36,857 nucleotides of DNA from Longimicrobium sp. (GTDB lineage Bacteria; Gemmatimonadota; Gemmatimonadetes; Longimicrobiales; Longimicrobiaceae). The DNA lies in assembly GCF_035474595.1 (NCBI RefSeq), contig NZ_DATIND010000072.1, forward strand, positions 1-36,857, read 5' to 3'. The first letter of the stretch is position 1. The number at the start of each line of letters is the position of its first letter. Below the pieces are notes generated by a model that saw nothing but the letters and a program-made list of their open reading frames with translations, did no database searches and was not told the DNA's origin. This document shows positions 22,256 through 32,139 of the stretch, in pieces. Position numbers and translations under genes: made by a program.

Positions 22256-22744
22256 TCAGGCCGCGTTCTCGGTTGGGCCGGCGGGGGTGCCGCCGTTCTC
22301 CATCCGGCGCCAGGTGTCCAGCATGCGGTCCACCTCGGTGATCAGCAGGCCGTGGAAGCGCTCGGCCTCGCGCAGGCGCCGCTTTCCCTCGGCCATCTGC
22401 GGCGGGAGCGCGGCCTGCGCGTCGCCGAAGATCTTCACCATCTCGCGCCAGCGGCTCTGCGCCACGCGCATGATGTGCTCCCACGGGCTGTCCTGCGCGC
22501 GGTAGAAGTCGCGCCGGTCGCCCAGCGAGCTCACCCGCTCGATCATCCCGAACTGCTCCAGCATCCGGCAGTTGGTGCTCACGCCCGCCTTGCTGGCCTG
22601 CAGCTTTTCCGCGAGCTCGTCGAGCGAGTACGGGCGGCCGCCGATCAGCAGAAGGCCGAAGATGCGTCCCGCGCTGCGGGCCATCCCCTCCTTCTCGCAG
22701 ATCAGCCCCATCCGCTCCACGAACTGCTGCACCGACTCGTCCAC
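22256..22744 (-). CDS. MarR/GbsR-like transcriptional regulator of the efflux operon
   Basis: This 162-residue protein has a winged helix-turn-helix (about 25-90: RSAGRIFGLLLIGGRPYSLD, then ELAEKLQASKAGVSTNCRML). The C-terminus is a long dimerisation helix. The sequence GLICEKEGMARSAGRIFGLL is characteristic of the GbsR subgroup. As first gene of the operon with a palindrome over its promoter, it probably represses itself and the pump genes and responds to a pump substrate; the ligand is unknown. Confidence 0.88.
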   Translation of the reverse strand: MDESVQQFVERMGLICEKEGMARSAGRIFGLLLIGGRPYSLDELAEKLQASKAGVSTNCRMLEQFGMIERVSSLGDRRDFYRAQDSPWEHIMRVAQSRWREMVKIFGDAQAALPPQMAEGKRRLREAERFHGLLITEVDRMLDTWRRMENGGTPAGPTENAA

Positions 22745-23367: not shown

Positions 23368-24063
23368 ATGAGCTCTATCTTCGACAAGATCAAGGACGTC
23401 GGCAAGGACGCGCTCGGCACCTTCGTCGTGCTCGACGAGGATGGCAACGAGCAGCCGCAGGGCGCTCCCGGGGCCCCCGCCGACGCCACGCTGGCCGCCC
23501 CCGTCCGGGGCGCCGCCGCCGGGCCCGCGCAGCAGGGCGCCGTGCCGGTTCCCGCCGTGGCCGCCGCGCCCGACGCCGAGTTCGTGCAGCAGCTGCAGGC
23601 GGCGGTGGACGGAAGCAGGAAGCCGGCGCTGAAGCAGTTCCGCACGCTCTTCGCCGCGCTGGGCGCGGTGGCCGACGAGGGCACGCGCACGCAGCTGGCC
23701 GTATCGGCCGCGCAGGCCAGCCACGGCGTGAGCGCCACGCAGATCGCCGAGGCCATCGCCGACCGCATGCAGATCCTGGCGGGCGAGAAGGCCGCCTTCG
23801 ACAAGGCCGTGCAGGAAGAGACGGCGCAGTCGGTGGGCGGCACGCAGGCCGAGATCGAGAAGACGCGCGCCGAGATCACCCGGCGCATCGAGGAGATCAA
23901 GGCGCTGGAGGCCAAGGCCGCCGAGCTCGACAAGCAGGCCCGCGAGGCGCGCGCCGCCATCGACGCCAACTCGGCGCGCTTCGCCGCCAGCTACGCCGTG
24001 GTCCAGGCCGAGCTCGAGGCCGAGCGCTCCCGCATCGCCCCCTTCCTCACAACCGCGAAGTAG
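23368..24063 (+). CDS. Alanine-rich coiled-coil protein of the ABC-OmpA cluster
   Basis: This 231-residue soluble protein has an N-terminus (MSSIFDKIKDVGKDALGTFV) that may form an amphipathic helix. An Ala/Pro-rich linker follows (residues 30-65), then a helical domain (70-145). The rest is a coiled coil (about 145-215: AEIEKTRAEITRRIEEIKAL, then EAKAAELDKQAREARA). No signal peptide is present. It lies 7 nt before the next coiled-coil gene, so the two are co-transcribed and may interact. The general look recalls PspA-like or scaffold proteins, but no family is recognised. No good ribosome site is visible. Confidence 0.75.
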   Translation: MSSIFDKIKDVGKDALGTFVVLDEDGNEQPQGAPGAPADATLAAPVRGAAAGPAQQGAVPVPAVAAAPDAEFVQQLQAAVDGSRKPALKQFRTLFAALGAVADEGTRTQLAVSAAQASHGVSATQIAEAIADRMQILAGEKAAFDKAVQEETAQSVGGTQAEIEKTRAEITRRIEEIKALEAKAAELDKQAREARAAIDANSARFAASYAVVQAELEAERSRIAPFLTTAK

Positions 24064-24070
24064 CCCCGCG

Positions 24071-25120
24071 ATGGAGACCTCCGCTACCGCCGGCGCGCCC
24101 AAGGCCGCCCGCACCTTCTGGCAGCGCCCCGAGGGCAAGGTGGGCGCCGGGATCATGGCCGGCCTGGGCGTGGCCATCGCCTGGGCGTTCGTGCACTTCC
24201 TGCCCAAGCTGATCGAGATCGCCCAGAACACCCTGTACCTGGCCTTCCTGGTGGGGGTGCTGGCGCTCGTCTACTTCACCGTGTTCGTGTGGGACCGGCC
24301 GCGCACGCTGCTGTTCTACTCGCTGCAGATGATCAGCCGCTGGGTCACCGGCAACTTCGTGGAGCTGGACCCGGTTTCGATCCTGAAGAGCTTCGTGCGG
24401 CAGATGGAGAAGCGCCGCGAGGTGATCCAGGACCGCCTGGCCCGCATCGTGGGCGTGCGGCGGATGGTGGAGGCCAAGATCGCCCGCAGCGAGAAGGAGC
24501 GGCAGGACGCCCTCCGCCTCGCGAAGGCCGCGCAGGCCACGCACGACGAGGACGGGCTGAACGCGCACGCCGAGATCGCCGCGCGCCGCGCGCGCGACAT
24601 CGAGGAGTACCGCTCGATGCAGGAGCAGATGCTCAACATCGAGAAGCTCCTGCAGCGGGTGATGCGCCGCGCCGACTACCACATCCAGACCGCGCGCGAC
24701 GAGGCCAACCAGCTGGCCGACAAGCACACCATCACCGGCGCGGTCGCCTCGGCCACCGCCGCCGCGCAGGGGATCTTCGGCGACACCGACCTGGCCGAGG
24801 TGCGCGACATGGCCGCCGAGCGCATCCGCGACGACTACGAGAAGCGCCTGGGCGAGCTGCAGACGCTGATCGACCTGACCGACTTCGACCACGCGGTGGA
24901 CCTGAACCAGATGGCCTTCCGCCAGGAAGGGCTGACGCAGCTGATGGAGGCGGAGAAGAAGGTGACCGCCGCCGAGCTGGCCGACCCCGCCGCGACCTCG
25001 GCGGGCGCCGGCGCCGCGCTGCTGGCGCAGGCCGAGTCGATGGGCGGTGGATCGGGCGGCGCCGCGCCGCCGGCCGCGACCCCGGAGAACCGCTGGCGCG
25101 GGAAGCTGCGGAGACAGTAG
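24071..25120 (+). CDS. Two-TM membrane protein with long coiled coil
   Basis: This 349-residue protein has residues 24-48 (KVGAGIMAGLGVAIAWAFVH) and 53-75 (LYLAFLVGVLALVYFTVFVW) as membrane helices. The rest is cytoplasmic and largely helical, with a charged coiled coil at about 115-215 (KRREVIQDRLARIVGVRRMV onward). The C-terminal tail is Gly/Ala-rich and ends NRWRGKLRRQ. It probably anchors a cytoplasmic assembly at the membrane. It is followed by a hairpin, then by the OmpA-fusion and ABC genes on the same strand. No family is recognised. Confidence 0.8.
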   Translation: METSATAGAPKAARTFWQRPEGKVGAGIMAGLGVAIAWAFVHFLPKLIEIAQNTLYLAFLVGVLALVYFTVFVWDRPRTLLFYSLQMISRWVTGNFVELDPVSILKSFVRQMEKRREVIQDRLARIVGVRRMVEAKIARSEKERQDALRLAKAAQATHDEDGLNAHAEIAARRARDIEEYRSMQEQMLNIEKLLQRVMRRADYHIQTARDEANQLADKHTITGAVASATAAAQGIFGDTDLAEVRDMAAERIRDDYEKRLGELQTLIDLTDFDHAVDLNQMAFRQEGLTQLMEAEKKVTAAELADPAATSAGAGAALLAQAESMGGGSGGAAPPAATPENRWRGKLRRQ

Positions 25121-25126
25121 AAAAGA

Positions 25127-25201
25127 AAGTGCTGAGTGCCGAGTGCTGAGTGCCCGGCAGCACCGATCGCACTCAGCACTCAGCACTTCAGTAGAGTTTT
25201 T
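25127..25201 (+). terminator. Hairpin of AGTGCTGAGTGC repeats with T-run
   Basis: AAGTGCTGAGTGC at 25127 is repeated as GAGTGCTGAGTGC and pairs with GCACTCAGCACTCAGCACTT (25170-25189). GTTTTT follows about 7 nt later. It may end or attenuate the transcript of the two coiled-coil genes before the OmpA-fusion gene. The same simple repeat occurs in other gaps. Confidence 0.5.
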
Positions 25202-25236
25202 GCCGGCGAAGTGAACCCGAACCCCGTTTTCCTACC

Positions 25237-27084
25237 ATGCAACTGACATCGACGGGCCAGAAGACCGTCCGCATCCTGGGCGGGCTGGCCGTGATCGCGG
25301 CGCTGGGCTTGGGGCTGCGCTACGCGGCCCAGCACGGCTACGGCCGCCAGATCATGAAGGCCCTCGTTCCCGAAAAGGTGAGCGGGCTGGACAGCGGCTC
25401 CGACATCGGCAACGGCTTCGCCACCGGCACGGGCACCGTGGCCCTGGCGCCGCTCCCCACCGACCGCCCAGCCGAGATGCCCGGCGCCCCCGAGGTGCGC
25501 ATCAACTTCTGGGCGTGGAACTCCCAGATGGGGTGCCTCTACTCCAACGGCGGCCCGGTGACCACGCAGGGCTCGCTGATGGAGAAGCAGGGCGTCAAGG
25601 TCCGCATCGACCGGCAGGACGACAACACCCAGCTCATGGCGCAGCTCACCGCGCTGGCCAAGGGGCTGCACGACGGCCAGGCGCAGCCCGCCGCCGGCGT
25701 GCACTTCGTGGGCATCATGGGCGACGGGTCGGGCGCCTTCCTGGCCGCGCTGAACAAGCAGCTGGTGGACTCGTTCGGCGAGGACTACCGCGCCGAGATC
25801 ATCGGCAGCTGCGGCTACTCGCGCGGCGAGGACAAGCTGATGGGGCCGCAGAAGTGGCGCGACAACCCGCAGAGCATGCGGGGCGCCGTGGTGGCCGGCG
25901 TGCTGCGCGACGGCGACTGGAACATCGCCCAGCGCTTCATGGGCGACAACGGCATTCCCAACAACCCCGACGAGACCACCTACGACCCCAACGCGGTCAA
26001 CTGGGTGAACACGTCGAGCTACGTGGAGGCGGCCGAGAAGTACGTGGCCAACTACTGCGAGGACCGCAAGGTGGTGGTCGACGGGAAGCCGACCGGCGAG
26101 ACCAAGAAGGTGTGCGTGGACGGCATCGTCACCTGGACGCCGGCCGACGTGACCGCGGCGCGCGAGCGCGGCGGGATCGTGAGCATCGTGTCGACCAAGG
26201 AGTACACGTCGCAGATGCCGCACGTGATCATCGGCATCCACAAGTGGAACCAGCAGAACCGGCAGACGGTGGAGAAGATGCTCACCGCCTTCCTGCAGGG
26301 CGGCGACCAGGTGCTGCACCACCAGGAGGCGCTGCACCGCGCCGCCGAGATCAGCCAGCAGATCTACAACGAGAAGGGCGCCGACGCCGCGTTCTGGGAG
26401 AAGTACTACCGCGGCGTGACCGAGGCCGACAAGACGGGGATCCAGGTGGACCTCGGTGGATCGAAGGCCAACAACCTGGCCGACAACCTGGTGCTCTTCG
26501 GCCTGGCGCCGGGGACAACTCCGGAGACCAGCCGCTTCCGCGCCACCTACACGGTGTTCGGCAACATCGTGAAGCAGCAGTACCCGCAGCTGGTGCCCAG
26601 CATTCCGCCGGTGGACCAGATCGTGGACGTGAGCTACCTGCAGGCCGTGGCGCAGCGCGCCGGCGGCACGCAGGCCGCCGCCGCCGCCGCCGAGACGCAG
26701 ACGTACAACGGCAGCGGCAACGTCTCCCGCGTGGTGGGCCGCCGCAACGTCTCCATCACCTTCGAGACCGGCTCGGCCAACTTCACCCCGGCGGGCGAGC
26801 AGCAGCTGGAGCAGCTCTTCAACGAGCTGTCCATCAACTCGCTGACGGTGGAGATCCACGGCCACACCGACAACGTGGGGAACCCCGACGCCAACCAGCA
26901 GCTGTCGGAAGACCGCGCGATGGCGGTGAAGAAGTGGCTGGAGCAGCGCTCGGCCAGCACCTTCCCGCAGGGCCGCATCCGCATCTTCGCCCACGGGTCG
27001 ACCATGCCGATCGAGTCCAACCGGACGGCCGAGGGGCGGGCGGCCAACCGCCGCGTGGAAGTCGTGATCGGCACCAACAGCTGA
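25237..27084 (+). CDS. Membrane-anchored solute-binding-like protein fused to an OmpA domain
   Basis: This 615-residue protein has one N-terminal membrane helix (residues 11-30, VRILGGLAVIAALGLGLRYA), which looks like an anchor because no cleavage site follows. Residues 85-480 resemble a type 2 periplasmic binding protein of the nitrate/taurine class (EVRINFWAWNSQMG, LMEKQGVKVRIDRQDDNTQL), with an extra Cys-containing insertion (YCEDRKVV..KKVCVDG). Residues 504-612 are an OmpA/MotB-like peptidoglycan-binding domain. It has FETGSANFTPAGEQQL, HGHTDNVGNPDANQQLS with Asp545, and NRTAEGRAANRRVEV with Arg605/606, the expected diaminopimelate contacts. The permease and ATPase genes follow directly. 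The fusion would tie a transporter's binding module to the cell wall. Confidence 0.88.
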   Translation: MQLTSTGQKTVRILGGLAVIAALGLGLRYAAQHGYGRQIMKALVPEKVSGLDSGSDIGNGFATGTGTVALAPLPTDRPAEMPGAPEVRINFWAWNSQMGCLYSNGGPVTTQGSLMEKQGVKVRIDRQDDNTQLMAQLTALAKGLHDGQAQPAAGVHFVGIMGDGSGAFLAALNKQLVDSFGEDYRAEIIGSCGYSRGEDKLMGPQKWRDNPQSMRGAVVAGVLRDGDWNIAQRFMGDNGIPNNPDETTYDPNAVNWVNTSSYVEAAEKYVANYCEDRKVVVDGKPTGETKKVCVDGIVTWTPADVTAARERGGIVSIVSTKEYTSQMPHVIIGIHKWNQQNRQTVEKMLTAFLQGGDQVLHHQEALHRAAEISQQIYNEKGADAAFWEKYYRGVTEADKTGIQVDLGGSKANNLADNLVLFGLAPGTTPETSRFRATYTVFGNIVKQQYPQLVPSIPPVDQIVDVSYLQAVAQRAGGTQAAAAAAETQTYNGSGNVSRVVGRRNVSITFETGSANFTPAGEQQLEQLFNELSINSLTVEIHGHTDNVGNPDANQQLSEDRAMAVKKWLEQRSASTFPQGRIRIFAHGSTMPIESNRTAEGRAANRRVEVVIGTNS

Positions 27085-27178
27085 TCGGACCAGGCAGCAC
27101 CGGCCGGGGCGCGGGGGGAACCTCTCCGCGCCCCGGGCGCGTCTCCACCTTCTCCCTTTCCCAACCGACGTCCAGCCG

Positions 27179-27964
27179 ATGCCTTCACTCGGTCCCGCGC
27201 TCCGGCCCAACCAGTGGGTCCCGCAGCGCACCTACCTGAGCATGGCCGCCGCCTGGGGCGGCGCCGTGATCCTCCTCTGGCTCTTCGCCTCGGGGATCTT
27301 TCCGTCGCCGGCCAAGGTGGCCGAGGCGCTCCGCACGCTCACCGCGCAGCAGGGGCTGCTGGGCGAGCTGCTCACCAGCCTCACGCTGTTCGGCGAGAGC
27401 CTGCTGATCGCGGTGCTCATCTCCTTCGCGCTGGCGTACCTGAGCGTGGTCCCCGCGCTGCGCCCCATCGTCACCGCGCTCACCAAGGCGCGCTTCCTCA
27501 GCCTGGTGGGCTTCACCTTCGTCTTCACCCTGCTCTTCAACGGCGGGCACTCGCTGAAGCTGGCGCTGCTGGTGTTCGGCATCTCGGCCTTCCTGCTGAC
27601 CTCGATGGTCGACATCGTGGCGGCCGTGCCCACCGAGAAGCTGGACCACGCGCGCACGCTGCGCATGGGCGACTGGCGCGTGGTGTGGGAGGTCGTTGTC
27701 CTCGGCCAGATGGGCGCCGCCTTCGACGCCATCCGCCAGAACGCGGCGATGGGGTGGATGATGCTGACCATGGTGGAGGGGCTGGTCCGCGGCGAGGGCG
27801 GGATCGGGACCATGCTGATGGACCAGCAGAAGCACTTCAACCTGGCCGCCATCGTGGCCGTGCAGGGGGTGTTCCTGATCGCCGGGTTCTTCCAGGACGC
27901 GTTCCTGGCCTGGATGAAGGGGGTGCTGGTTCCCAGCGCCGCCCTGGTCACCGCGCGCCGCTGA
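27179..27964 (+). CDS. ABC permease, TauC/SsuC-like
   Basis: This 261-residue inner-membrane permease has about six hydrophobic segments. The segment FPSPAKVAEALRTL after the first helix and the loop EKLDHARTLRMGDWRVVWEV (the EAA-type ATPase contact) are typical of nitrate/sulfonate/taurine permeases. No ribosome site is obvious, but the frame begins 95 nt behind the OmpA fusion and 11 nt before the ATPase gene. With its neighbours it would make a transporter or an ATP-driven envelope device. Confidence 0.88.
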   Translation: MPSLGPALRPNQWVPQRTYLSMAAAWGGAVILLWLFASGIFPSPAKVAEALRTLTAQQGLLGELLTSLTLFGESLLIAVLISFALAYLSVVPALRPIVTALTKARFLSLVGFTFVFTLLFNGGHSLKLALLVFGISAFLLTSMVDIVAAVPTEKLDHARTLRMGDWRVVWEVVVLGQMGAAFDAIRQNAAMGWMMLTMVEGLVRGEGGIGTMLMDQQKHFNLAAIVAVQGVFLIAGFFQDAFLAWMKGVLVPSAALVTARR

Positions 27965-27975
27965 GGAGGGCAACC

Positions 27976-28806
27976 ATGAGCACCCAGCACGCGTACGAGC
28001 GCAAGAGCGTTCTCGTCGACATCCAGGGCGTGACCTTCGCGCGGGGCGGCGTTCCCATCCTGCGCGAGGTGAACGCGCAGATCCGCGACGTGGTGCGCCC
28101 CGGGGTGAAGCAGGGGCAGATCGTGGGGCTCCTGGGCCCGTCGGGCGTGGGAAAGACCACGCTCTTCAAGATCCTGGCGGGGCTGGTGAAGCCCGACGCG
28201 GGAACGGTGAAGATCGGCGAGAAGGGGATTCCCGCTTCGCCCGGCCTGGTGGGCGTGGTGGCGCAGAACTACATCCTCTTCGAGCACCGCACCGTCCTGG
28301 GCAACCTCGTCATCGCGGCGAAGCAGGCGGGGATGAAGGCGGACGACGCGAAGGCGGCGGCCATGAAGTACCTGGAGCGCTTCGGGCTGCAGGCGCACGC
28401 CGGCAAGTACCCCGTGCAGCTCTCGGGCGGGCAGCGGCAGCGGGTGGCCATCGCCCAGCAGCTGCTGTGCAGCGAGAACTACCTGGTGATGGACGAGCCC
28501 TTCAGCGGGCTGGACGTGCTGCAGCAGGAGAACGTGCACGCGCTGCTGCAGGAGGTCAGCCTGACCAACGAGGAGAACACGCTCATCATCGTCACCCACG
28601 ACGTGTCGGCCGCCGTGGCGGTGTGCGACACCATCTGGCTGATGGGGCGCGACCGCGACCCGCAGGGGAACGTGATCCCCGGCGCGCGCATCGTGGAGGA
28701 GATCGACCTGATCGAGCGCGACCTGTGCTGGCACCCCGACATCCGCCTGCGCCCGGAGTACATCCAGCTGGTGAACGAGATCAAGGAGCGCTTCCACACG
28801 CTCTGA
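27976..28806 (+). CDS. ABC ATPase, TauB/SsuB-like
   Basis: This 276-residue ATPase is complete: Walker A GPSGVGKT (54-61), Q-loop Gln97, signature LSGGQ (149-153), Walker B LVMDEP (170-175) and switch His208. It has a short insertion before Walker A (RDVVRPGVKQGQIV) and a C-terminal extension of about 45 residues rich in charged residues (LIERDLCWHPDIRLRPEYIQ). The extension also occurs in some nitrate-type ATPases. The ribosome site is GGAGGG, 5 nt before ATG. A hairpin follows. Confidence 0.93.
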   Translation: MSTQHAYERKSVLVDIQGVTFARGGVPILREVNAQIRDVVRPGVKQGQIVGLLGPSGVGKTTLFKILAGLVKPDAGTVKIGEKGIPASPGLVGVVAQNYILFEHRTVLGNLVIAAKQAGMKADDAKAAAMKYLERFGLQAHAGKYPVQLSGGQRQRVAIAQQLLCSENYLVMDEPFSGLDVLQQENVHALLQEVSLTNEENTLIIVTHDVSAAVAVCDTIWLMGRDRDPQGNVIPGARIVEEIDLIERDLCWHPDIRLRPEYIQLVNEIKERFHTL

Positions 28807-29768: not shown

Positions 29769-30923
29769 TTACAGCGTGCTCTTGTAGAGCAGGCGGTTGG
29801 GCGTGCCGGTGACGTTGCCGGTGATCACGTTCGTGGTGGAGTTGTTGATGATCCACGACACGATCGTGCTGCTGGCCGCGTCGCCGAAGGTGCCCTTGTA
29901 CAGCGCCGCCACGCCGGCCACGTGCGGGCTGGCCATGCTGGTGCCGCTGATGGTGTTGGTGCCGCTGTTGATCCAGGTGCTGGTGATGCTGCTGCCCGGC
30001 GCGTAGGCCTCGACGCACGAGCCCCAGTTGCTGTAGCTGGCCTTGGCGTCGCTGCTGGTGCTGGCCGCGGTGGTGAACACGCCCGAGGCGCTGGCCGGCG
30101 ACACGTTGCAGGCGTTCTGGTTCTCGTTCCCCGCCGCCACGGCCAGGAACACGCCCGAGTTGGCCAGGTTGGTGGCCGCCGTGTTCAGCGTGCTGCTCAG
30201 CCCGCCGCCCAGCGACATGTTGGCCACCGCGGGCTTCACCGCGTTGGCGCGCACCCAGTCGATCCCCGCGATGATGGCGCTGGTGGTGCCGCTGCCGCTG
30301 CAGTTCAGCACGCGCACGCCGCGCAGCAGCACGCCCTTGGCCACGCCGTACGTGGTGGAGCCGATCGTTCCCGCCACGTGCGTCCCGTGCCCGTTGCAGT
30401 CGGCGCCGCTGCCGCCCGCGTAGTCGTACGAGGCCGCCGCGCGGCTGCCGAACTGCGGGTGGTTGGCCTGGATGCCGGTGTCGATGATGTACGCCCGCAC
30501 GTTGCTGGCGGTGGTCGTGTAGGTGTACGTCCCCGAGAGCGGGCGGGCGCGCTGGTCGATGCGGTCGATCCCCCAGGTGGCGCCGGACTGCGTGGTGGCC
30601 ACGCTGTACACCTGGTCCTGCTCGATGTAGTCCACGTTCGGGTTGTGCTGCAGCGCGTTCAGCTGCCCCTGGTTCAGCTCGGCGCTGAAGCCGTTCACCG
30701 CGGCGGTGTACACGAAGTGCGGGTTCACCCCCGAGACGGCGGCCACCGAGCGCGGGTCGGCGCCTTCCTTCACCACCACCACGTACGAGCCTTCCACGGC
30801 CACGCCGCGGGCAGCCACCACGGGCGCCGCGGCGCGCGTGGAAGTGGCCGTCGGGCTCTGGTCGGCGCAGGCGGCCAGCGCCAGGGCGGATCCCGCGAGC
30901 ATCACGTTGCGGAGCGCTTTCAT
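29769..30923 (-). CDS. Subtilisin-like (S8) lipoprotein protease 1
   Basis: This 384-residue proteinase K-type serine protease has a lipoprotein signal (LAGSALALAAC, Cys19). An inhibitor I9-like propeptide spans about 45-110 (SYVVVVKEGADPRSVAAVSG). The catalytic domain has Asp148 (IIDTG), His179 (CNGHGTHVAG), oxyanion Asn266 (AAGNEN) and Ser329 (GTSMASPHVAG). Cysteines at 176, 208, 272 and 303 could form disulfides. GGAGG lies 7 nt before the ATG. It is one of three related proteases in a row and was probably duplicated. A cell-surface nutritional or processing role is inferred. Confidence 0.93.
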   Translation of the reverse strand: MKALRNVMLAGSALALAACADQSPTATSTRAAAPVVAARGVAVEGSYVVVVKEGADPRSVAAVSGVNPHFVYTAAVNGFSAELNQGQLNALQHNPNVDYIEQDQVYSVATTQSGATWGIDRIDQRARPLSGTYTYTTTASNVRAYIIDTGIQANHPQFGSRAAASYDYAGGSGADCNGHGTHVAGTIGSTTYGVAKGVLLRGVRVLNCSGSGTTSAIIAGIDWVRANAVKPAVANMSLGGGLSSTLNTAATNLANSGVFLAVAAGNENQNACNVSPASASGVFTTAASTSSDAKASYSNWGSCVEAYAPGSSITSTWINSGTNTISGTSMASPHVAGVAALYKGTFGDAASSTIVSWIINNSTTNVITGNVTGTPNRLLYKSTL

Positions 30924-30996: not shown

Positions 30997-32139
30997 CTAG
31001 AGCCCCGCCGTGTAAAGCAGCCGGTTGGGCGTGCCCGCGGGCACGTTCTTCACCACGCCCGCGGTCGCGTTGGTCTTGATCCAGCTGTCGATGGTGACGG
31101 ACGCCGCATCGCCGAAGCGGGCCTTGTACAGCGCCGCCACCCCGGCCACGTGCGGCGCGGCCATCGAGCTGCCGGTGAGCGTGGCGGTTCCCGAGCCGAT
31201 CCACGTGGAGACGATGGAACCGCCCGGTGCATAGCCGTCTACGCAGCTGCCGTAGTTCGAGGTGGCCAGCCGGGTGTCGTCGGGGTTGGTGCCGGCCGTG
31301 GTGAAAACGGCCGCGGCGCTGGCGGGCGACACGTTGCAGGCGAGCTGGTTCTCGTTCCCCGCTGCCACGGAGGTGAAGATCCCCGCGTTGGACAGGCTGG
31401 TGACGGCGGTGTTCAGCGTGGAGGAGAAGGGACCGCCGAGGGAGAGGTTGGCCACGGCGGGCTTCTGCGCGTTGGCGCGCACCCAGTCGATCGCGGCCAC
31501 GATCCCGGAGGTGGAGCCGGAGCCGTTGCAGTCCAGCACGCGCACGCCGCGCAGCGACACGGCCTTCGCCACGCCGTACTGGGTGGAGCCCACGATGCCG
31601 GCCACGTGGGTGCCGTGCCCGTTGCAGTCCGCCCCGGTGCCGCCGAACGCGTCGTACACGTTCTGCGCGCGGGCGCCGAACAGCGGGTGGGTCGTCTGGA
31701 TCCCCGTGTCCAGGATGTAGGCGCGGACCCCGACCCCGGTCCCGGCGGTGTAGGTGCCCGAAAGCGGGAGATAGCGCTGGTCGATGCGGTCCAGGTTCCA
31801 CGGCACGCTGGTCTGCGCCGCGTGGTAGACGGCGTCCTGCTCCACGTAGGCGACCGCGGGGTTCTGCCGCAGCGCGTTCAGCTGGCCGGCCGTGAGCGTG
31901 GCCGCGAAACCGTTCACCGCCGCGGTGTAGACGTGGCGCGGCGCGGCGCCCAGCCCCGCGGCGACTCCGCGGGGGTCGGCGCCGGCGTTCAGCACCACCA
32001 GGTACGCGCCGCCGATCCCGCCGGCGGACGCCAGCCGCACCGGCGCGGCGTGCGGCGCGCGCGCGGCCGTGGGCGATCCGTCCGCGCACGCGGCGGCGGC
32101 GGAAAGCGCGAGCAGGAACGTCGAGCGGATCGGGCGCAT
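30997..32139 (-). CDS. Subtilisin-like (S8) lipoprotein protease 2
   Basis: This 380-residue paralog of the neighbouring protease has a signal with Cys18 as probable lipid site (LLALSAAAAC). It has an I9-like propeptide (AYLVVLNAGADPRGVAAGLG) and catalytic Asp144 (ILDTG), His175 (CNGHGTHVAG), Asn262 (AAGNEN) and Ser325. Its serine motif is GSSMAAPHVAG in place of GTSMASPHVAG. It ends soon after the catalytic domain (NRLLYTAGL), like protease 1. The ribosome site is weaker (AAGGG). The gap of 73 bp to protease 1 suggests possible co-transcription. Confidence 0.92.
   Translation of the reverse strand: MRPIRSTFLLALSAAAACADGSPTAARAPHAAPVRLASAGGIGGAYLVVLNAGADPRGVAAGLGAAPRHVYTAAVNGFAATLTAGQLNALRQNPAVAYVEQDAVYHAAQTSVPWNLDRIDQRYLPLSGTYTAGTGVGVRAYILDTGIQTTHPLFGARAQNVYDAFGGTGADCNGHGTHVAGIVGSTQYGVAKAVSLRGVRVLDCNGSGSTSGIVAAIDWVRANAQKPAVANLSLGGPFSSTLNTAVTSLSNAGIFTSVAAGNENQLACNVSPASAAAVFTTAGTNPDDTRLATSNYGSCVDGYAPGGSIVSTWIGSGTATLTGSSMAAPHVAGVAALYKARFGDAASVTIDSWIKTNATAGVVKNVPAGTPNRLLYTAGL

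Follow-up and report, generated by a model that had tools for sequence, protein, structure and literature searches.

A five-gene cassette of Longimicrobium predicted to join a wall-tethered ABC transporter to a PspA-like protein, and its counterparts in giant phages

Genes of the cassette

The window, that is, the whole stretch of DNA analysed here, comprises 36,857 nucleotides of Longimicrobium sp. (contig NZ_DATIND010000072.1), and our subject is a cassette of five genes in it, called A to E, which lies at positions 23368-28806 with all genes on the plus strand. Genes A and B encode coiled-coil proteins, gene C a binding protein fused to an OmpA domain, and genes D and E the permease and the ATPase of an ATP-binding cassette (ABC) transporter. 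The initial annotation, made from the letters of the window, had described five same-strand genes, and all five open reading frames (ORFs) are indeed present. The cassette is far beyond chance, because this set of genes, in an unchanged order, is found again across phyla and in viruses. Its extent can be seen in the congeners: in genomes G006 and G009 the match to the window is confined to the A-E segment and the flanking genes are other ones, while congener G008 has its flanks in common with the window. Since only A-E is conserved within the other flanks of G006 and G009, the five genes are, as judged from these comparisons, one movable block.

Gene C (25237-27084, 615 aa; ORF, Pfam and fold model) is built of three parts. 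A hydrophobic helix at residues ~9-31 is the putative membrane anchor by hydropathy, residues ~81-475 form a binding module of the TauA/CmpA fold in the predicted model, and residues 508-605 are an OmpA peptidoglycan-binding domain (Pfam PF00691, 72.4 bits against a gathering score of 27.2, E = 4e-20). The structure was predicted with 41 homologues and reached a predicted local distance difference test (pLDDT) score of 89.4. In the structure comparison (VIA), the module of the model matches TauA with a Z score of 27.5 over 290 residues at 3.0 A, and CmpA/NrtA with Z scores of about 24-25. The C-terminus matches the peptidoglycan-binding domains of TagL, OmpA and Pal, with 34% identity and 1.5 A for TagL. 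When the binding module alone was compared with PDB by sequence, as a single sequence or as a profile, nothing meaningful was returned, and so it is by its predicted fold alone that the module is placed. Among 132 homologues, D545 and R560 are conserved to at least 97%; we take these residues to be the equivalents of the Asp and Arg that contact diaminopimelic acid (DAP) in this domain family. Many residues of the binding module are also conserved to at least 97% in this set. The conserved module residues include the acidic E198, D199, D225, D227, D250 and D304, and because several of them are acidic, the ligand of C may be cationic or an amine. The membrane-anchored TauA/NrtA-like module, its fusion to an OmpA domain and the intact wall-binding Asp and Arg, all read from the sequence at the outset, are thus borne out.

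Gene D (27179-27964, 261 aa; ORF, Pfam and NCBIfam) is a divergent permease, which scores 21.8 bits (E = 1.7e-4) against PF00528 (BPD_transp_1) and so stays below the gathering score of 26.4. Its homologues in the phages LR756500 (27.8 bits), LR756501 (56.0 bits) and Bacillus phage G (gp243, 83.4 bits) all pass. Against NCBIfam, D matches SaoP at 1.7e-6 and TauC, weakly, at 9e-6, in agreement with the TauC-like permease proposed initially. Gene E (27976-28806, 276 aa; ORF and Pfam) matches PF00005 (ABC_tran) with 99.6 bits and an E value of 2.9e-28. The Walker A, LSGGQ, Walker B and H-loop motifs are kept, with G57, G59, K60, S150-G152, D173, E174 and H208 conserved to at least 97% among 121 homologues, and the ABC engine therefore looks intact, so that the cassette may well import a solute, and the mechanical or stress-sensing role proposed initially is a hypothesis. 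The label of a TauB-like ATPase stands as far as the NCBIfam match to TauB goes (8e-37), but it is not specific, since other importer ATPases score equally well or better.

Gene A (23368-24063, 231 aa; ORF) starts with a short, amphipathic-looking stretch, followed by a low-complexity linker, a helical domain and a long coiled coil. Hydropathy gives no hydrophobic segment, no Pfam family lies above its cut-off and no NCBIfam family was found; the probability of a match to PspA is 0.4% (hhalign). Gene B (24071-25120, 349 aa; ORF) has two hydrophobic segments within residues ~26-73 by hydropathy, and beyond them a predicted long hairpin like that of PspA/Vipp1, with helices at residues 101-156 and 160-233. 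The mean pLDDT of this model is 74, and most of the hairpin is above 90. The two coiled-coil proteins of the initial annotation are therefore a cytoplasmic protein, A, with no transmembrane (TM) segment, and a helical hairpin, B. The two TM helices assigned to one of them are matched by the hydropathy segments of B, yet the model draws a single long helix there.

Several searches place B near PspA. Matches 1-13 of its model in PDB (Foldseek) are all Vipp1 or PspA, with E values from 5e-4 to 0.07, and the best match of the B profile in PDB is Vipp1 at 0.005. The PspA/IM30 family PF04012 is touched by just 4 of 26 B members (best E = 8e-4), and B of the window is below its gathering score, with no match even at E = 1. 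The strongest evidence for the identity of B is its context, i.e. proteins of the PspA family found in the B slot of other cassettes. PF04012 proteins above the gathering score fill this slot in the Acidobacteria loci L050 (65.7 bits) and L108 (66.9 bits), and in L052, also of Acidobacteria, the gene right after A encodes a PF04012 protein with 79.9 bits. A B profile built from viral members only finds the PspA of L108 (3e-7) and that of L059 (1.6e-5), and misses that of L052. The resemblance to PspA suggested initially for the coiled coils is thus right for B, on which fold search, profiles and slot agree. Judged from sequence and model, B is a remote relative of PspA/Vipp1 in the ESCRT-III superfamily and not PspA proper; we call it ESCRT-III/PspA-like because it is below the PF04012 threshold.

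Occurrence in phages and bacteria

A search of phage records (tblastn) returned a full-length C in the huge phage LR756500 (462 kb; 31%, E = 7e-74), in which A-B-C-D-E are all present in the same order. The same order was found in two phages whose cassettes were not used to build any profile: the 735-kb phage LR756501, with E values of 4e-41, 8e-53, 1e-28, 3e-29 and 4e-60 for A to E, and Lak megaphage A1, with 7e-33, 1e-65, 1e-29, 2e-30 and 1e-52. A relative of C is present in all 15 Lak records matched. A first scan of IMG/VR gave 34 loci, and 80 of the 140 stretches matched in a later one were retained; the distinct viral loci number 103, on contigs of up to 578 kb. A is found in 95 of these loci and B in 97, in each case upstream of C; D is present in 99, E in 96, and the full set of five in 87. 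In the 24 viral records tested for phage markers, a T4-type portal was above threshold in 14, a terminase was found in 14 and either of them in 15, and the T4-type portal was absent from 14 control genomes. Nine records (L128-L133, L147, L164 and L165) have no terminase, above-threshold portal or Gp23, so that their viral status rests on IMG/VR; two of the nine contain weak, sub-threshold portal or sheath matches.

Because A and B are weakly conserved, profiles split into viral and bacterial members were used as a control. The viral-only profiles recover A of the window at 1.4e-33 and B at 4e-68, as well as 36 of 37 bacterial members of A and 30 of 31 of B. Their best non-members, among about 6,000 ORFs, are at 4e-4 for A and 0.07 for B. 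In the reverse control, bacterial-only profiles without Gemmatimonadota perform likewise on the viral members.

The cultured Bacillus phage G has a partial cluster, in which D is gp243, E is gp245, the A homologue is gp246 (5e-15) and two paralogues of C are gp249 and gp250. Inside this cluster, gp247 (L229:3797-4537) is a coiled coil with an N-terminal hydrophobic segment, perhaps a diverged B or PspA. In two viral loci, A is directly preceded by a large protein of similar appearance in both (L132:2966-5473 and L165:3506-5878), with weak matches to the von Willebrand factor type A (VWA) family of Pfam in L132 and none in L165.

On the bacterial side, a scan of the genome collection gave 189 relatives of C, and 79 loci were kept. 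The hosts belong to Acidobacteriota, Armatimonadota, Myxococcota, Bacteroidota, Abditibacteriota and three lineages of the Candidate Phyla Radiation (CPR), and they include the complete genome of Minicystis rosea and isolates of Flavobacterium, Pedobacter and Niastella. No relative of the binding module was found in the plasmid collection. The occurrence is patchy near the window itself: C is present in 7 of 10 Longimicrobium genomes, the window's own included, while the other 51 sampled genomes of the order gave OmpA-domain matches only and no C. In the Gemmatimonadota sample, C occurs in 5 of 298 genomes, all within one of 119 genera. The CPR copies (L095, L104 and L106) were considered as misbinned phage contigs, and this was rejected, as their neighbours look bacterial (by eye, TypA-, UvrD-, P-type ATPase-, MsrB-, ribosomal L1- and GyrB-like ORFs) and there is no portal or terminase in those genomes.

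A check was also made on whether the coiled-coil genes stand beside the ABC genes in relatives, since their loss there would have spoken against the initial reading, and they are mostly conserved. Of 85 bacterial loci, 30 have the complete cassette with A and B ahead of C. In the Myxococcota and Armatimonadota, the A homologue is joined by another kind of TM coiled-coil protein, and both stand mostly downstream of E. Some Bacteroidota loci (e.g. L078, L082 and L097) have neither coiled-coil gene nearby. A second conserved TM coiled-coil family of ~290 aa, called Bp, was noted at L108:5799-6620 and at 20 other loci, mostly after E. It is found in Acidobacteria, Armatimonadota and Myxococcota and has no reliable Pfam family. 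An ATPase of the AAA+ class (ATPases associated with diverse cellular activities) adjoins the cassette in 22 other loci, bacterial and phage, with some Flavobacterium among them (examples are L110:11426-12934, L025:15340-16797, L050:12338-14056 and L104:2992-4587); these neighbours are possible Vps4-like partners.

In a tree of 129 C proteins, viral and bacterial rows interleave with 10 label changes, at least 5 of which are forced by well-supported branches. The window genus forms one clade with support of 100, and it groups with phage contigs and Acidobacteria with a moderate support of 88. A 37-row clade rich in Myxococcota and Armatimonadota is nearly all bacterial. The 479-kb IMG/VR contig L131 (7707-13337) has the order C-D-E-Bp-A as in Myxococcota and Armatimonadota, and its C lies inside the bacterial clade. 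The simplest reading of the tree is a transfer of the cassette between phages and bacteria, which may have run in either direction for the window genus. This genus probably gained the cassette horizontally from a phage-bacterium gene pool, a direction that we infer.

Within the window, a MarR-type regulator (22256-22744, minus strand) is upstream of the cassette, as are minus-strand TolC-like and RND-efflux-like (resistance-nodulation-division) genes, judged from their ORF translations with no search made. The gap between B and C (25118-25190) holds a palindromic repeat, AAGTGCTGAGTGC...GCACTCAGCACTT, with 31 matches in the genome (E of 1e-5 or lower). As it is repeated genome-wide in both orientations, it is a dispersed element of the REP (repetitive extragenic palindromic) kind. 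Downstream of the cassette come a small ORF and a pair of ORFs that resemble subtilases. Of the pair, 29769-30923 (minus strand) encodes a subtilase that has an I9 pro-domain, and the adjacent 30997-32139 (minus strand) resembles a close copy.

A possible envelope machine and its rivals

With a probability of roughly 0.5, the cassette encodes a wall-anchored ABC device that is coupled to a PspA-like membrane-maintenance protein and has been exchanged between giant phages and bacteria; in this we infer the formation of a complex, the ligand, the coupling of E to B, the benefit to the phage and the direction of transfer. What is observed is the gene content and order, the limits of the unit, the predicted folds, the conserved ATPase and wall-binding residues and the distribution in phages; the reading draws on these, on the PspA-like features of B, on the AAA+ ATPases next to 22 other cassettes and on the published precedent. 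A to E would together make up one envelope machine. D and E would form an inner-membrane ABC transporter of type I, and C would be its binding protein, held by the membrane helix at one end and by the OmpA domain on peptidoglycan at the other. B would be a membrane-anchored, PspA/Vipp1-like protein that covers the inner membrane or lends it support, and A a cytoplasmic coiled-coil partner of B, of E or of both. The state of C, dependent on ligand or tension, would be relayed via D and E, and ATP would drive transport and also control the assembly of the A/B layer, so that the inner membrane is kept intact under envelope stress. In giant phages, the cassette would keep the stretched host cell sealed through a long infection. 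The carriers observed are the Lak megaphages, the 735-kb phage, LR756500 and about 100 IMG/VR contigs, with a partial set in Bacillus phage G. We consider the odds about even that the largest phages repeatedly carry the complete machine, that it keeps the host envelope intact and that it has moved between phages and chromosomes, including those of the window genus.

Some observations weigh against this envelope machine. The comparison of B with PspA of Gemmatimonadota (hhalign) gave a probability of just 58%, in a register that begins at a D/N-P motif common to both; the Z scores of 10-12 for B (VIA) are also reached by BAR domains and other helical bundles; and B has hydrophobic segments in the place of the amphipathic helix 0 of PspA, which it does not have. 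In phage G, gp247 looks PspA-like by eye, and the profiles did not confirm it as B/PspA. No AAA+ gene was seen among the ORFs beside the cassette of the window. Also, an ordinary importer would account for C, D and E.

That last point leads to the strongest rival, a specialised nutrient importer, which holds this place because the transport core is intact, though we think it unlikely. Here C-D-E would import a solute of the TauA/CmpA class, the tether would keep C close, A and B would be scaffolds, and in phages the whole would be an auxiliary metabolic module. The TauA/CmpA fold of C and the intact ATPase motifs of E are as such an importer would have them, the many invariant residues of the binding module suggest a fixed ligand, and the divergent phage versions match NMT1-like binding families. 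However, phages keep A and B just as constantly as the transporter genes, a PspA family member can occupy the B slot, and a plain importer has no need of a wall anchor or of a partner like PspA. When the neighbours of the cassette were compared across loci, no recurring metabolic, hydrolase or defence gene was seen.

The lack of a recurring hydrolase gene counts in the same way against an FtsEX-like mechanotransmitter, which we regard as improbable. In that case nothing would be transported, and ATP would serve to pull on peptidoglycan or to sense the distance between membrane and wall via C, in order to remodel the wall or regulate hydrolases. C does physically link the inner membrane to the wall in the predicted layout, its wall-binding residues are nearly invariant and coiled-coil partners are at hand, but D is of the importer type by NCBIfam and the module of C retains the full fold of a solute-binding protein. 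Least probable, and quite doubtful, is a superinfection-exclusion or anti-phage module, in which a phage envelope complex blocks the entry of competitor DNA and bacteria have domesticated it as defence: the cassette is common among phages and patchily distributed among bacteria, PADLOC relates the OmpA domain of C to the MotB-type ZorB models of Zorya and Al-Shayeb et al. (PMC7162821) suggested that phage-encoded surface proteins may influence infection by other phages, but the PADLOC matches are generic OmpA/MotB and ABC domains only, so that no defence system was called, no defence genes recur beside the cassette and it is present in genomes of Flavobacterium, Myxococcota and Armatimonadota.

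Giant phages carry hundreds of genes without known use, and an order-conserved cassette of ~5 kb must earn its keep. Its parts point to the maintenance of the host envelope by a protein of the ESCRT-III type together with an ABC engine. PspA was named after its response to phage, and a phage that brings a PspA-like system of its own would be a testable twist on that naming. Knockouts are feasible, as Bacillus phage G is cultured and isolates of Flavobacterium and Pedobacter have the bacterial version.

Comparison with known systems

What goes beyond the initial annotation is the PspA/ESCRT-III identity, for which there is a published precedent, and the occurrence of the complete cassette in huge phages, which appears to be unreported: no literature report of a phage-borne cassette was found, and the main texts of Al-Shayeb 2020 (PMC7162821) and of three Lak papers are silent on it, their supplements lying outside our scope.

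When compared with TauABC, SsuABC and NrtABC-CmpABC, the cassette shares the fold of the binding module and the families of permease and ATPase. It differs in that C is tethered at both ends, to membrane and wall, in the coiled-coil partners and in the divergent D, which is below the gathering score of PF00528. With OmpA, Pal, TagL and MotB it has in common the C-terminal domain of C with the conserved DAP-contact Asp and Arg, which in C is fused to a solute-binding module. The long helical hairpin, a weak profile similarity and the PspA proteins in the B slot of some Acidobacteria relate B to PspA/IM30 (PF04012), Vipp1 and ESCRT-III, whereas B has two N-terminal hydrophobic segments where PspA has its amphipathic helix 0, and it does not reach the threshold of PF04012. 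The cluster gp243-gp250 of Bacillus phage G likewise groups a permease, an ATPase, an A homologue and two binding-OmpA proteins, but its gene order is another one, C is present as two paralogues and the binding module is nearer to the NMT1 families.

The closest published counterpart of genes B-E is the kind of bacterial operon described by Ravi et al. 2024 (PMC11237479, section 18), which joins PspA/TM-Snf7 to an ABC ATPase, a permease and a PBPB-OmpA protein, and for which those authors proposed that membrane remodelling and transport are linked. As far as that section goes, the bacterial operon kind is already known, while neither the A protein nor phages are described in it. It stresses AAA+ ATPases, which 'may occur' together with such operons and are absent beside the cassette of the window. 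The same paper raises the question of how the assembly of PspA homologues is controlled where there is no AAA+ ATPase, and the present cassette, in which the ABC ATPase is the constant partner, bears on this question.

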